Shown here: piece after piece, positions 13,827 through 37,064 of the stretch
Position numbering within the stretch: the first letter of the stretch is position 1
Layout: each line of letters starts with the position of its first letter
From: Haloterrigena sp. KLK7
GTDB taxonomy: Archaea > Halobacteriota > Halobacteria > Halobacteriales > Natrialbaceae
Length of the DNA: 64,000 bases
NCBI RefSeq assembly: GCF_037914945.1
Contig: NZ_CP149787.1
Span: 2,728,001-2,792,000, forward strand
Direction: 5' to 3'
Notes under the pieces: generated by a model
The model's input: only the letters and a program-made list of their open reading frames with translations
Databases searched by the model: none
What the model was told of the DNA's origin: nothing
Translations under genes and position numbers: made by a program

Positions 13827-13905
13827 ACCGATCCGTACGGGCTCGAGGGCATTTTCCCTTGCCGATCCGCGTCGATCGGTGTCGGTCACCGAATCGATCC
13901 GACTC

Positions 13906-13985
13906 ATACGGATTCGTGTCATCAATTGCCGCTGATCGGCGACTCGCGAGGCCGATCGGCGGTAACTACGGACACGAATCCGTAT
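13906..13985. repeat. 80-bp nested inverted repeat after rnhA
   Basis: Outer arms ATACGGATTCGTGTC (13906-13920) and its perfect complement GACACGAATCCGTAT (13971-13985) enclose a second imperfect pair, CCGCTGATCGGC and GCCGATCGGCGG (11 of 12 match). The element begins exactly at the rnhA stop codon on the minus strand and separates rnhA from the downstream operon gene. It could be a 3' RNA hairpin (terminator or processing site) or a small palindromic insertion. Confidence 0.7.
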
Positions 13986-14578
13986 CAGGCCTCGTCGAGG
14001 GCCTCGTTCACGAGACCGTCCGCGCGCTCGTTGACTTCGCGGGGGACGTACTCGAGGGTCCATTCGTCGAAGGCGGTGAGCAGTTCGTGGACGGTGACGC
14101 GCTTCTCCCGGAGTTCGGGGTTGTTGGTGTCGTACTCGCCGCGGACCTGCTTGACGATCAGTTCGGAGTCGCCGCGGACGTGGATCTCGTCGTAGCCGTA
14201 GTCGCGAGCGGCCTCGAGGCCCGCGATCAGCGCCTCGTACTCGGCCTGATTGTTGGTCGCCGTGCCGATCGTCTCGCCGTCTTCGGCGACGATTCCGTCG
14301 CCGGTGACGATCACCCAGCCGATCGCGGCCGGGCCGGGGTTCCCGCGCGAGCCGCCGTCGAAGTAGACGTGCGCGCGCCCGCCGCTCTCGCGCAGCAGCG
14401 CCTCGAGGTCCTGCGGGTTCGATCCCTGGATGACGACCTTGTCGTCGTAGGCGACGGCCGTCGCGGAGCCGCGGCTCGCCCGCCAACGCTCGTGATCCGT
14501 GTTTCCGGAGTCGACCGACACCCCTTCCTCCTCGAGTCGTGCTCGAGCCGTCTCGACGTCGCACTCGATGACCGGCAT
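13985..14578 (-). CDS. rnhA: Ribonuclease HI
   Basis: Degrades the RNA strand of RNA-DNA hybrids. The 197-residue protein has an N-terminal extension of about 65 residues (MPVIECDVETARARLEEEGV) and a C-terminal RNase H fold with the catalytic carboxylates in HVYFDGGSRGNPGPAAIGW, NNQAEYEALIAGLEAA, HVRGDSELIVKQV and NERADGLVNEAL. The ATG at 14578 is chosen over longer in-frame starts because a TATA box lies 26-32 bp upstream and sequence beyond lacks homology. The archaeal extension resembles that of Halobacterium RNase HI. Confidence 0.94.
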   Translation of the reverse strand: MPVIECDVETARARLEEEGVSVDSGNTDHERWRASRGSATAVAYDDKVVIQGSNPQDLEALLRESGGRAHVYFDGGSRGNPGPAAIGWVIVTGDGIVAEDGETIGTATNNQAEYEALIAGLEAARDYGYDEIHVRGDSELIVKQVRGEYDTNNPELREKRVTVHELLTAFDEWTLEYVPREVNERADGLVNEALDEA

Positions 14579-16718: not shown

Positions 16719-17015
16719 TTATTCGTCGGTTTCGTTTCCGTCAGTCTCGTTCGTTTCGTTTTCGTCGGTTTCGTTGGTTTCGTTTCCGTCGGTCTCGTTC
16801 GTTTCGTTTCCGCCGGCCTCGAAGCCGTTCTCCTCCTCGCTCTCGTTTTCTTCCGGCGTCTCCGATTCGTTGTCTTCCGGCGCCGCCGGTGCGTCGTCCG
16901 TTCCCTCTTGGTCTTCGCCGTTACCGCCGCCGCCGTCGCCACAGCCGGCCAGCGCCGTGAGACCGACTGCGCCGCTCAGTGCGATCACTCGTCTGCGAGT
17001 TGGTCGTGTCGTCAT
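16719..17015 (-). CDS. Tat lipoprotein with Asn-Glu-Thr repeat tail
   Basis: 98-residue predicted lipoprotein: twin-Arg signal (TRRRVIALSGAVG), lipobox ALAGC, then only low-complexity acidic sequence with no folded domain. The tail is built of NETNETDGNETNETDENET-type repeats that would be rich in N-glycosylation sequons (N-E-T), so a glycosylated, extended surface polymer is likely. The start at 17015 (MTTRPTRRRV) is chosen because the signal peptide begins there; an ATG at 17051 adds 12 residues. It may be a decayed or stalk-like paralogue of the lipoprotein at 15792. Confidence 0.6.
   Translation of the reverse strand: MTTRPTRRRVIALSGAVGLTALAGCGDGGGGNGEDQEGTDDAPAAPEDNESETPEENESEEENGFEAGGNETNETDGNETNETDENETNETDGNETDE
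16722..16812 (-). repeat. Coding tandem repeat (Asn-Glu-Thr units)
   Basis: On the plus strand the block repeats TCGTTCGTTTCGTTTTCGTC-like units (sub-repeat GTCGGTTTCGTT/GTCTCGTTC), encoding the NET-sequon tail on the minus strand. Repeat number is likely to vary between strains. Confidence 0.7.
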
Positions 17016-25243: not shown

Positions 25244-25549
25244 GCGGTGGCGCGCGCTGTCGGGTGGTCGAGCGAGAGCGAGGGGCTCCAACGGAACTGC
25301 GCGAGGGATGAGCGACCGGAGCGCGGCGCGACGCGCCGCGGTGAAGCGAACGGCGCGAGCCGTGCGCCTCGGAGGGAGCGTTAGCGCGGAACCGACGGTT
25401 CCGCGAACCACGCGAGTAGTGCGAGACCGAAGGTCTCGCATACCGTGCGAACGGCGGCGTTGCCGCCGTGAGCAGACGGGCCGGTAGCCCGCGAGCAGAA
25501 ATCGGCTGGAGAGGACGTGGAAATCCCTGATGCCACGCCAGCAGAACGC
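25244..25549 (-). repeat. Hairpin-chain repeat element, copy 1
   Basis: Read on the minus strand it starts GCGTTCTGCTGGCGTGGC, runs through ATCAGGGATTTCCACGTCC and CAGCCGAT, and ends near CAGCGCGCGCCACCGC. Between lie successive perfect hairpins: plus-strand 25322-25340 (arms CGCGGCGCG), 25385-25405 (arms CGCGGAACCG), 25420-25440 (arms TGCGAGACC), 25451-25469 (arms ACGGCGGC) and 25477-25491 (CGGGC). The same order of blocks occurs in the copy at 31407-31660. No coding frame is credible. It occupies the gene-free region between the acyl-CoA dehydrogenase and HAD genes. Confidence 0.75.
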
Positions 25550-25638
25550 TTCTTCCCGCCACAATTCCCCTCGAGCACACCAACGAGTAGTTTCCTGACC
25601 TGTGGATTCGGGAGGAGGAACGGTCGAAACGAAGCGAC

Positions 25639-25777
25639 CTGCTATCATGGCAACGGGGATCGCCACACCCTCCCCAGCCGATTCGCTCGCTCCCTAGAGT
25701 CGCTCGCTCATCCCTCGCGCGGCGTCGCCGATCGCCCCTCACACTCGTTCGGACCGATCGACAGCGCGCGCCACTGC
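25639..25777 (+). repeat. Hairpin-chain repeat element, copy 2 (short)
   Basis: Starts CTGCTATCATGGCAACGGGG, continues with CCACACCCTCCCCAGCCGAT and ends ACAGCGCGCGCCACTGC, the same termini as copies 1 and 3, but most of the hairpin body is missing. It is inverted relative to copy 1 with 89 bp between their starts. Outside the copies, the parts 25112-25243 and 25778-25908 show nothing recognisable. Confidence 0.7.
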
Positions 25778-25908
25778 ACGCCGGTTGCCCGGTTCCGAGT
25801 TCGCCGTTCTCAGTCGTAGTAAGTGCGAGCGGGAAGACGGGTCTCAGCCCCATACGTCGGTTCGCGGAGACCGAAGTCACTATTCGCCTCCCGAACCTAT
25901 CTACGGAC

Positions 25909-28781: not shown

Positions 28782-29030
28782 ATGACACTCGAACAATTCA
28801 CCCGCGAAGAGGGGCAGGTAGCCCGCCGGTACGAGTACGACGACGAGACGGTGCTGGCCGTCGACTTCGGTACCGAGAACGCCGACGCGACGGTCGATCT
28901 CGTCGATGAGACGGTCATCGTCGTCCTCGGCGACGAGCAGTACGACCTCGAGCTGCCGGACGGTGCAGACGACGCGCACACGTTTATCAAAAACGGGGTC
29001 CTGACTGTCGAACTGGAGGGCGATCTATGA
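28782..29030 (+). CDS. Hsp20-like small protein co-transcribed with CDC48 (DUF7127-like)
   Basis: 82-residue beta-rich acidic protein ([35 protein letters not shown]) resembling an alpha-crystallin/Hsp20-type fold without the usual arms. It precedes the CDC48 ATPase and overlaps its ATG by ATGA, implying stoichiometric or regulated co-production; a cofactor or substrate-adaptor role is plausible but unproven. The frame may also be opened by a TTG two codons earlier; the ATG is preferred. Confidence 0.8.
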
Positions 29031-31291
29031 AACTCACCGTTAAACCACTGAAACAGAAGGACGCCGGCCGCGGACTCGCCGCGATCGATCGCGTCTCGAT
29101 GCGCGAGCTCGACCTCGAGAACGGCGACTACATCGTCATCGAGGGCGCGGGCGACAGCCAGGCCGTCGCGCGCGTCTGGCCGGGTTACCCGGAAGACGAG
29201 GGGCGGGGAATCATTCGAATCGACGGCCGCCTCCGCCAGGAGGCCGACGTCGGGATCGACGACAACGTCAGCGTCGAAGCCGCGGACGTCAACCCCGCCA
29301 AGTCGGTGACGGTCGCGCTGCCCCAGAACCTCCGCATTCGCGGAGACATCGGGCCGCTCGTCCGCGACAAGCTGTCCGGACAGGCCGTCACCGAGGGCCA
29401 GACGGTACCGTTCTCGCTCTCGTTCGGCCCGATGGCCAGCTCCGGCCAGTCGGTGCCGCTGAAGATCGCGAGCACCTCGCCGTCGGGCACGGTCGTCATC
29501 ACGGACTCGACGAACATCGAGATCTCCGAGACGCCGGCCGAGCAGGTCAGCTCCGGTAGCGGCGCGTCCGCCGAGGGCGTCCCGAACGTCACCTACGAGG
29601 ACATCGGCGGCCTGGACGACGAACTCGACCAGGTCCGCGAGATGATCGAGCTACCGATGCGGCATCCCGAACTGTTCCAGCAGTTAGGGATCGAGCCGCC
29701 GAAGGGCGTCCTGCTGCACGGCCCGCCGGGCACCGGGAAGACGCTGATGGCGAAAGCCGTCGCCAACGAGATCGACGCCCACTTCGAGACGATCTCCGGC
29801 CCGGAGATCATGTCGAAGTACTACGGCGAGAGCGAGGAGAAGCTCCGCGAGGTCTTCGAGGAGGCCGAGGAGAACGCGCCCGCGATCGTCTTCATCGACG
29901 AACTCGACTCGATCGCCGCCAAGCGCGAGGACGCCGGCGGTGACGTCGAACGCCGCGTCGTCGCCCAGCTCCTCTCGCTGATGGACGGTCTCGAGGAGCG
30001 GGGCCGCGTCACCGTCATCGCCGCGACCAACCGCGTCGACGACATCGACCCCGCGCTCCGGCGCGGCGGTCGCTTCGACCGCGAGATCGAGATCGGCGTC
30101 CCCGACAAGGACGGCCGCAAGGAGATCCTGCAGGTCCACACCCGCGGGATGCCGCTTCAGGAGGGGATCGACCTCGACCGGTACGCCGAGAACACCCACG
30201 GCTTCGTCGGAGCCGACCTCGAGAGCCTCGCCCGCGAGGGCGCGATGAACGCGCTGCGACGCATCCGTCCCGATCTCGACCTAGAGGAGGACGAGATCGA
30301 CGCCGAGGTCCTCGAGACGCTCGAGGTCACCGAGAGCGACTTCAAGGAGGCGCTCAAGGGAATCCAACCCTCCGCGATGCGCGAGGTCTTCGTCGAGGTC
30401 CCCGACGTCACCTGGAACGACGTCGGCGGCTTAGAGGACACCAAGGAGCGCCTCCGCGAGAACGTCCAGTGGCCGCTGGACTACCCCGAGGTGTTCGACG
30501 AACTGGACATGCAGGCCGCGAAGGGCGTCCTCATGTACGGCCCGCCGGGCACCGGGAAGACGCTGCTCGCCAAGGCCGTCGCCAACGAGGCCCAGTCGAA
30601 CTTCATCTCGATCAAGGGCCCCGAACTGCTGAACAAGTACGTCGGGGAGTCCGAGAAGGGCGTCCGCGAGGTCTTCGAGAAGGCGCGGTCGAACGCACCG
30701 ACCGTGATCTTCTTCGACGAGATCGACTCGATCGCGGGCCAGCGCGGTCGCCAGCAGGGCGACTCCGGCGTCGGCGAACGCGTCGTCTCCCAGCTGCTGA
30801 CCGAACTCGATGGCCTCGAGGAACTCGAGGACGTCGTCGTGATCGCCACGACCAACCGACCGGACCTGATCGACAACGCCCTGCTCCGTCCCGGACGGCT
30901 GGACCGCCACGTCCACGTGCCCGTCCCCGACGAGGACGGCCGCCGGAAGATCTTCGAGGTCCACACCCGCGACAAGCCCCTGGCCGACGCGGTCGACCTC
31001 GACTGGCTGGCCGCGGAGACGGAGGGCTACGTCGGTGCCGACATCGAAGCGGTCACGCGCGAGGCCTCGATGGCCGCCAGCCGCGAGTTCATCAACTCGG
31101 TCGATCCCGAGGAGATGGCCGACACCGTCGGCAACGTCCGCATCAGCAAGGAGCACTTCGAGCACGCCCTCGAGGAGGTCAACCCGAGCGTGACCCCCGA
31201 GACGCGCGAGCAGTACGAGGAGATCGAAGAGCAGTTCGACACCGCCGAACCGGCCCAGGAAGAGGACCAGCTCGGCCGCACCTTCCAGTAA
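29027..31291 (+). CDS. cdc48: AAA-type CDC48/VAT unfoldase
   Basis: Hexameric ATPase that unfolds proteins, feeding the proteasome or remodelling complexes. The 754 residues comprise the N-domain double-psi barrel and four-stranded cap (1-180, including [20 protein letters not shown]), D1 with Walker A GPPGTGKT (about 232) and Walker [12 protein letters not shown], and D2 with Walker A GPPGTGKT (about 504) and Walker [16 protein letters not shown]. Arg fingers and sensor Asn ([22 protein letters not shown]) are present in both. The acidic C-terminal tail ends [10 protein letters not shown]. Confidence 0.97.
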
Positions 31292-31333: not shown

Positions 31334-31406
31334 AAGTGAACGAGACTCTCGTCCGATAGCGGAGCGTCTCGGACGGTGTGCTCGAGGGAAGCGGTACCGA
31401 AATAAC

Positions 31407-31660
31407 GCGTTCTGCTATCGTGGCAACAGGGATTTCCACATCTCTCCCCAGCCGATTCGCTCAGTCGCTTCGCTCCCTCACTCATCCGACGGAAGACGCG
31501 GAGCGTCTTCCGAGCCGTTCGCTCATTTCATCTGCTCACGGCGCTTCGCGCCGTTCGCACGGTATGCGAGACCTCCGGTTTCGCACTATTCGCGAAGACC
31601 TCGCGGGGTTTCGGACCCCGGTTCGTCAGTGACTCACCGGGATCCAGCGCGCGCCACCGC
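31407..31660 (+). repeat. Hairpin-chain repeat element, copy 3
   Basis: Begins GCGTTCTGCTATCGTGGCAA, then AGGGATTTCCACATCTC and CCCCAGCCGATTCGCTC, and ends CAGCGCGCGCCACCGC. The body holds hairpins at 31490-31512 (arms CGGAAGACGC), 31538-31554 (arms ACGGCGC), 31565-31585 (arms TGCGAGACC with one G-T), 31590-31604 and 31603-31618. The two blocks TCTGCTCACGGC and TTCGCACGGTATGCGAGACC match copy 1 while arm sequences differ in a compensating way. It fills the gene-free stretch after CDC48; 31661-31930 shows nothing else I recognise. Confidence 0.75.
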
Positions 31661-31930
31661 GCGCCGGATAATCGAGCAGGCAACGGTAACGCCTCAGCCC
31701 GCATGTAACGCAGTGCGTCTCCCCGAGATAGTCCGCGGCGAGGAGCGGTCGTTCGGTACCCGCACGTGCGAATCGGATGATGGAGATCATACCGAAACCT
31801 GCGTGAGAGTTCAGACCGCGGGGGAGTTCGAGACACTTGCACAGCTAAAAACTCAGATTAACTACTAGATAGGGCTATGACTGTTCTCGTTTGAAACAAT
31901 TATGTGGCCAAAAAGTAATTTTAATTGATA

Positions 31931-35852: not shown

Positions 35853-36005
35853 GGTGGCGTGCGCCGTCGGTGAGCCGAGCGATAGAACCAGGAATCGATC
35901 GAACGACATCCGGCGGCGGATTGACGGGGTGTTCGACTCCGTCTGGCGACTAGGGATCGCCACGCCCTCCCTGGCCGATTCGTTCGCTCGCGCTACTCGC
36001 TCACT
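35853..36005. repeat. Decayed hairpin-chain repeat fragments (copy 4)
   Basis: 35853-35882 (GGTGGCGTGCGCCGTCGG then GAGCCGAGCG) resembles the distal end of copy 1 in the same orientation; 35946-36005 (TAGGGATCGCCACGCCCTCC then GGCCGATTCGTTCGCTC) resembles the proximal core in the opposite orientation. Together they suggest an old, rearranged copy in the peroxiredoxin/GINS intergenic region. Confidence 0.5.
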
Positions 36006-36035
36006 CGTCTCTCGCACGTCAGTCTCGGTCGCCGC

Positions 36036-37064
36036 TCACTCGAGCGGTTCGGCGGCGTCCTGCTCGAGCAGCGGATCCGCGTTCTGCTCGGGGAGGGTGA
36101 CGATATCGTCGCTCGAGAGGGAGTACTCGCGGTCGTCGACGCCGAGAATCGAGCCGACGTCGCGGGTGATCCGGACGGTGACGCGGTCGACGTCGTCCCC
36201 AGACGCGTCGTCGTCCGTCGCGTCGGGATCGGTCGGTGCGGTGTCCGGACTGTCCCCGGACAGGGCGTTTGGAGGCGCCTCCCCCGGTTCCGGCGGCGAC
36301 TCTCCGGCGGCCTCGTCACCGAGGTCCGGTCCGTCCCCGCCCATGACGTCCGCGGGCGTCACGCCGCTCGAGTCGCCGGATCCGGACCCGGGAGCAGTAG
36401 TAGCGCCAGTGTCGGCGTCCGCGTCAGCAGGCGGTTCCTGTGGCGGCACCGGCGGTGCGTCGTCGTCGGCCGTCTCGGCTGGCGGCGAGTCGCGGTCGCT
36501 CGCGGTCCCGGGATCGGCCATCGGGTCGGCGGCCGTCGGATCCGTGCCGGGTGCGGGGCTCGAGTCGGCCCGCGTCGGATCGGTGGCGTTCCGGGGCCCA
36601 CCGGCGGGTCCGGCTTCGGTCCCCTCACTCCCCGCTGGGGCTTCGGTCTCGCCGTCGCCCGCGGCGTCCTCGGTCTCGACGCCCTCGAGGACGTCGAGGA
36701 CGCGGGACTTGTTCGAACCGATCCGATCGACGAGATCGTCGAAGAGGTCGGCCTCCTCGGCGGTGAGTCCGTCGTCGTCGGCCGGCATCCCGGCCGCGGC
36801 GAGGCTGGCCTGCTTGACGAGTTTGCCCATTCGGCGCTCGTAGATCGCCTCGACGACGTCCTTGGCGGTCTCGATCTCGTCGGTCAGCCGACCGACCTCG
36901 GGCGAGGAGAAGGGGTCGTCGCTCTCCTCGGCGACGCGGTCACGCTCGTCCTCTAAGTCGGCGATGTACTCGCCGACCTCCTGGTAGAACGAGGGGCGCA
37001 GATTCTGGAGGCTGTCCTTCTGGCGCTCCTTGCTCTGGACCGAACGTAACTCGTCTAGATTCAT
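36036..37064 (-). CDS. gins51: Archaeal GINS subunit Gins51
   Basis: GINS component of the replicative CMG-like helicase assembly, linking MCM and primase. The 342 residues comprise an N-terminal GINS A-domain (1-125, MNLDELRSVQSKERQKDSLQ, YERRMGKLVKQASLA), a very long Asp/Glu/Pro/Gly-rich linker (about 135-285) and a small C-terminal B-domain (DRVTVRITRDVGSILGVDDRE). Non-halophile Gins51 is usually below 200 residues, so the linker is the odd part. It overlaps the priS stop codon by ATGA, as the pair is commonly arranged in archaea. Confidence 0.88.
   Translation of the reverse strand: MNLDELRSVQSKERQKDSLQNLRPSFYQEVGEYIADLEDERDRVAEESDDPFSSPEVGRLTDEIETAKDVVEAIYERRMGKLVKQASLAAAGMPADDDGLTAEEADLFDDLVDRIGSNKSRVLDVLEGVETEDAAGDGETEAPAGSEGTEAGPAGGPRNATDPTRADSSPAPGTDPTAADPMADPGTASDRDSPPAETADDDAPPVPPQEPPADADADTGATTAPGSGSGDSSGVTPADVMGGDGPDLGDEAAGESPPEPGEAPPNALSGDSPDTAPTDPDATDDDASGDDVDRVTVRITRDVGSILGVDDREYSLSSDDIVTLPEQNADPLLEQDAAEPLE

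Follow-up and report, generated by a model that had tools for sequence, protein, structure and literature searches.

What kind of sequence occupies the space that follows cdc48 (29027-31291) on this haloarchaeal chromosome, which belongs to a 4.64-Mb genome? In the window (the whole stretch of 64,000 nucleotides that was analysed, C1:2728001-2792000, to which the coordinates refer), the preliminary description placed here a further copy of a chain of hairpins, sharing a core, two spacer blocks and a terminus with a copy located upstream (copy 1); it suggested that this element may be a structured RNA or a recombination substrate, and named the lack of empty sites and of conserved structure in related strains as observations that would speak against it. 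The shared parts were confirmed. The core GTGGCAACAGGGATTTCCAC (31420-31439) has a second window copy with up to three mismatches on the minus strand (25517-25536; none in 100 shuffles); the two spacer blocks, TCTGCTCACGGC (31531-31542) and TTCGCACGGTATGCGAGACC (31554-31573), recur on the minus strand at 25465-25476 and 25432-25451, respectively; and the terminus CAGCGCGCGCCAC is present at 31645-31657, 25247-25259 (minus strand), and 25762-25774.

The alignment of the copies bore out that the hairpin arms differ between them, and revealed a basic repeat unit of about 123 bp with the arrangement GTGGCAACRGGGATTKCCAC-NYCCTCCCCARCCGATTCGCTC-hairpin-CATCCCTCGCRCGG-variable hairpin-CAGCGCGCGCCAC. 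Both copy C (the one that follows cdc48) and copy 1 exceed this size through added hairpins (Table 1). The element after cdc48 ends at about position 31657, and the lineage-specific insert that embeds it is larger (31370-31794). Elsewhere in the window, an inverted repeat of 38 bp, almost perfect and with a loop of 10 nt, lies at a gene edge (13903-13988), and a degenerate tandem repeat in a minus-strand gene (16722-16880) encodes a low-complexity linker.

Table 1. Repeat copies in the window and anatomy of the copy that follows cdc48.
Feature	Coordinates	Strand	Description
Copy C, repeat after cdc48	31420..31657	+	Orientation of the preliminary description; the structure lies on the minus strand
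Left core	31420..31439	+	GTGGCAACAGGGATTTCCAC; weak stem; its GTGGC is also pairable with the terminal GCCAC
Near-invariant block	31443..31457	+	Consensus CCTCCCCAGCCGATT; in copy C TCTCCCCAGCCGATT
P3 hairpin	31454..31486	-	GATGAGTGAGGGAGCGAAGCGACTGAGCGAATC; GAT-GA-GT-GA-GG-GA-GC-[GAA]-GC-GA-CT-GA-GC-GA-ATC
Extra inserted hairpin	31491..31511	.	GGAAGACGCGGAGCGTCTTCC
Extra hairpin	31533..31559	-	TGC-GA-ACGGCGC-[GAA]-GCGCCGT-GA-GCA, i.e., TGCGAACGGCGCGAAGCGCCGTGAGCA; includes the first spacer block and reaches into the second
Extra hairpin	31565..31585	-	TGCGAAACC-[GGA]-GGTCTCGCA; from folding and sequence
P4 hairpin, variable arms	31613..31645	-	GGATCCCGGT-GA-GT-[CACTG]-AC-GA-ACCGGGGTCC; arms covary across copies
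Right terminus	31645..31657	+	CAGCGCGCGCCAC; conserved; weak conservation (CGCACGCCGG) runs on for about 10 nt
425-bp stretch	31370..31794	.	Diverged and 220 bp long in H. turkmenica; three sister species have 2-3 bp in its place
Copy 1	25247..25536	-	Enlarged
Copy 2	25647..25774	+	Head-to-head with copy 1
Fourth copy	35952..36069	+	Degenerate

The distribution of the repeat was analysed with a covariance model built from 12 short copies, all from the source genome (cut-off E<=0.01). In this Haloterrigena-like genome, 108 matches were retrieved, merging into 102 elements; all of them lie on the 3.84-Mb contig, the remaining 0.80 Mb being free of copies (p ~4e-9). A comparison genome of the same genus, which fits Haloterrigena turkmenica (PMC3035258; seven contigs, with a chromosome of 3,889,038 bp), harbors 98 copies, all chromosomal, with 0/98 on plasmids (p ~5e-15). 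Among 392 genomes taken as a sample of the order, 169 have relatives (E<=1e-6), with copy numbers from about 100 down to one. The exact 20-base block occurs in at least 120 stretches from many named Halobacteria genera, the matches listed being haloarchaeal only, and probing 2.9 million viral contigs with it did not retrieve any occurrence; the repeat did not match phages either. Only four plasmid records match the repeat; one of them, the 987-kb CP031304.1 of Natrinema thermotolerans, recorded as a plasmid, carries it at six places, is the sole one of the four in which a copy is nearly full length, and may be a secondary chromosome rather than a plasmid.

Most of the copies in the source genome are 70-85% alike, and given this degree of likeness the family has had no very recent expansion. 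A larger autonomous copy in the source genome was looked for and rejected: all but one of the matches to the left-block pattern were model matches, and none lay off the chromosome. No Rfam covariance model matched the repeat, and none of its sequence strings was found published in the literature searched. At one source-genome locus (C1:2325252-2325500, L089), purine-rich palindromes of the GAGCGAGC type adjoin a repeat copy, beyond the model; in Halosimplex, copies such as L218 and L214 are flanked on both sides by ACCGCA-like motifs that may represent a target or else a flanking repeat.

The analysis of the fold changed the picture given by the preliminary description in one respect: the repeated chain of hairpins is real, but its conserved structure lies on the opposite (bottom) strand, and the strand originally read carries none: the hairpins form on its complement. 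On the bottom strand, P3 follows the family pattern GAT-GA-NN-GA-NN-GA-loop-GA-N'N'-GA-N'N'-GA-ATC, in which two-base Watson-Crick steps stand between tandem G·A; in copy C, the steps that alternate with tandem G·A are likewise paired, two of them through a G·T wobble, and the cap is GCGAAGC. The spacer blocks, conserved as described, turned out to be themselves arms of the tandem-G·A hairpin TGCGAACGGCGCGAAGCGCCGTGAGCA (bottom strand, 31533-31559), and the small stem attributed to the core is only partly conserved.

P3 was parsable in 40 out of 107 matches, and its fixed anchors were left out of the pair counts. The matched arms form 4.47 Watson-Crick pairs in the source genome (n=40), versus 2.78 (sd 0.15) with the arms shuffled between copies; the corresponding values are 4.52 versus 3.06 (sd 0.20; n=21) for H. 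turkmenica and 4.30 versus 2.77 (sd 0.18; n=33) for other families. In each of the three sets, 0/5000 shuffles were as high as observed; such shuffles keep the kinship between copies, yet the three sets, which are separate, concur, and the strands differ from each other. The P4 arms gave 20.5 when matched versus 14.0 (sd 0.38), with distant copies at 19.9 versus 16.0 (sd 0.45), and RNAalifold, applied to the strand of the preliminary description, also revealed covarying arms in this last hairpin. Symmetric tandem-G·A hairpins are present on the bottom strand in 81 and on the top strand in 2 of the 107 matches (shuffled mean 5.7, maximum 11). Moreover, the bottom strand is the better folder in 103/107 cases with the DNA energy model and in 104/107 with the RNA energy model. 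A helix (P1) closing the whole element through GTGGC/GCCAC, attractive in single distant copies, was dropped (14.28 matched versus 13.72 mismatched; shuffle sd 0.34). These data are best explained by a family-wide fold in which the bottom strand, when single-stranded, is predicted to form a chain of very stable mini-hairpins.

Is this fold adopted by DNA or by RNA? Energy alone does not decide, since both models favor the bottom strand. In a hairpin scan that left the loop sequence free, triloops were GNA in 113 out of 193 cases, tetraloops were GNYA in 31 cases versus GNRA in 12, and a pyrimidine preceded GA in 289/314. In RNA tetraloops, GNRA is expected to be favored. DNA mini-hairpins are known with GNA/GNNA loops and at least two G-C pairs, GCGAAGC melting at 78 C (PMC4686876); this heptamer caps, with exact identity, two hairpins of copy C. 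Furthermore, the outer P3 sequence matches [d(ATGAGCGAATA)]2, a DNA duplex of solved structure in which G:A mismatches lie next to each other (Chou et al. 1992, cited in PMC3694522).

The genomic context was checked with gene calls that are approximate, obtained with a simple home-made gene finder, and with the pairs of adjacent genes in the fetched stretches as control. All placed matches are intergenic, 50 between convergent, 43 between tandem, and 14 between divergent genes, versus 75, 158, and 69 control pairs, that is, an enrichment between convergent genes (50/107 versus 75/302; p=1e-4 over the three classes). The tandem contexts split into 19 same-strand and 24 opposite-strand cases, with no strand preference, for which reason an mRNA 3'-end element in fixed orientation was rejected; an RNA gene with its own promoter was rejected as well, since no AT-rich, promoter-like peak was found upstream on either side of the copies. 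Close neighbours are head-to-head in 14/15 pairs in the source genome and in 15/15 in H. turkmenica, the one exception consisting of partial matches on the same strand. Along the chromosome, orientation is near random in the source genome (runs z=0.49; H. turkmenica, z=-1.98), and a replication-polarised site was discarded on this basis. The loop type, the neutral gene orientation, and the lack of promoters tilt the balance toward DNA over RNA; the fold would then act as single-stranded DNA.

The comparison of occupied and empty sites adds a temporal dimension. The cdc48 site is devoid of the element in four sister species (G001, G002, G003, and G005); in G001, G002, and G003, the junction is clean and 425 bp shorter. 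It is from the absence in these four species that we infer the direction of change at cdc48. The site of H. turkmenica has a diverged version with the core missing; a TCTGCTTACGGTCGCTTCGCGACCGTTCGCACGG hairpin left there without core (L301) represents a decayed copy. No target duplication is visible at the cdc48 insert, which extends beyond the element by about 50 bp to the left and 137 bp to the right. An import of these flanks from elsewhere was rejected: they have no strong second copy, and only the H. turkmenica ortholog was found. The head-to-head pair at 25255-25781 of the window is lost in H. turkmenica, where the terminus alone is left. Among the best 30 H. turkmenica sites, most have counterpart sites in the source genome, and between orthologous copies hairpins are gained or lost as whole units. 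Among the pairs of the orthologous P3 arms, 16 had undergone a compensating change on both sides, 9 were broken, and 63 were unchanged; the length of P3 often shifts by one unit, both arms together, and a whole-hairpin exchange between copies is therefore as likely as point-by-point compensation. Hence, empty sites in sister species and structural conservation (P3 covariation in the source genome, in H. turkmenica, and in other families) were both found, and the two adverse observations named in the preliminary description are excluded.

Which of the known repeat systems does this family resemble? REP/REPIN elements with RAYT (PMC3116915, PMC3733652) are likewise small, intergenic, and multi-copy, occur as head-to-head (inverted) doublets, and share with the repeat conserved ends, a variable hairpin spacer with compensating changes, and imperfect stems foldable as single-stranded DNA. 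The repeat differs in being archaeal, with an asymmetric unit, tandem-G·A stems, and a location restricted to the chromosome in two species; no 20-40 bp palindrome with a GTAG/CGTC tag at its foot was seen in the copies whose alignments were inspected, and no RAYT (PF01797) flanked by repeats was found in the source genome, which harbors two Y1 transposases, one of them broken; the flanks of the intact one are free of the repeat. The SMR of Haloquadratum walsbyi (about 110 bp, up to 54 copies, off the large plasmid, with an obscure mobilisation mechanism; PMC3119063) are haloarchaeal, similar in size, and devoid of target duplication; however, they commonly share more than 95% identity, their terminal inverted repeats are prominent, and their targets are IS605-type elements, whereas the repeat has more divergent copies, terminal repeats of about 5 bp, and ordinary gene neighbours. 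With PATE and other IS200-IS605 derived elements (PMC3119063), the repeat shares palindromes, the lack of coding capacity, heterogeneous copies, and no target duplication; the ends of PATE resemble IS605-type ends, but those of the source genome's own IS605-type element, the one intact element available for this judgement, are unlike the repeat, and an origin from it was rejected. This element (C1:1131993-1132340, L178) carries TnpA and a TnpB-like gene.

Integron attC sites are variable in sequence. Similarly to the repeat, they fold from the bottom strand as single-stranded DNA and keep structure over sequence (PMC6393395); the repeat has no associated integron integrase or cassettes and a different anatomy. 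As in transposable elements, both occupied and empty sites exist in relatives. On the whole, the repeat was assigned to neither REPIN nor SMR. The chain of unusually stable hairpins on one strand points to a function of folded single-stranded DNA, or possibly RNA, without counterpart in described repeat families.

We give about an even chance to the scenario of a REPIN-like repeat that spread in the past via folded single-stranded DNA and today is passed on mostly at fixed positions. The bottom strand, once single-stranded, would fold into stems in which Watson-Crick steps alternate with tandem G·A, closed by GNA/GNNA loops; the folded DNA would be recognised by a putative DNA-processing enzyme; the family would have spread much like REP/REPIN elements; and present change would be mainly deletion, hairpin gain or loss, and whole-hairpin exchange between copies, e.g., by gene conversion. 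Copy number, intergenic placement, the strand-specific covarying fold, the head-to-head pairs, the shared positions, and the present/absent sites are direct observations. Against a spread as single-stranded DNA stand the full absence from plasmids, unusual for mobile DNA, the lack of any transposase or other enzyme linked to the repeat (the only intact IS200-type TnpA of the source genome has unrelated ends) and of target duplication, a clean insert that overshoots the element by about 185 bp, the lack of very recent expansion, folds that are stable as RNA too, and orthologous positions mostly kept between species. Tentatively, and at somewhat less than an even chance, we also propose a lineage-wide DNA family whose selected feature would be the strand-specific single-stranded fold (Watson-Crick/tandem G·A with GNA/GNNA caps), read by a putative haloarchaeal enzyme or chromosomal protein.

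The main rival, unlikely in our opinion, is that the bottom strand acts as RNA and is selected copy by copy: it would be a small RNA present in many copies, or else a structured end of mRNAs that terminates or stabilises transcripts. The strong strand-specific covariation across families, the compensating changes at orthologous copies, the excess between convergent genes, the more stable RNA fold of the bottom strand, and the conserved positions would suit it; the missing upstream peak on either side, the even same- and opposite-strand contexts, the tetraloops without GNRA preference, and the lack of an Rfam match argue in the opposite direction. Even less probable is a non-mobile element of the host chromosome, a DNA site for a chromosome-wide task such as structural-protein binding or the priming of synthesis: related genomes vary from none or one to about 100 copies, single sites come and go, orientation has no replication-linked polarity in the source genome, and the Natrinema plasmid carries the repeat, in spite of the confinement to the main contig or chromosome in the two Haloterrigena genomes, the near-invariant block CCTCCCCAGCCGATT, and the absence from viral contigs and phages, which would agree with such a site. 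Template switching at hairpins gives matching arms, and orthologs gain or lose hairpins as units; nevertheless, that the palindromes are a functionless mutational by-product perfected in this way appears very improbable, and is already disfavored, since arm copying would perfect palindromes on both strands and tandem G·A is kept on one only.

If the DNA reading is true, the repeat would offer a direct handle on a haloarchaeal single-strand-specific enzyme and on the spread of non-autonomous archaeal repeats; if the RNA reading is true, it would represent a large structured RNA family, so far unrecognised. The stable G·A mini-hairpins familiar from DNA chemistry in the test tube would be a conserved building block of a genome-wide repeat family, with about 100 copies on each chromosome.
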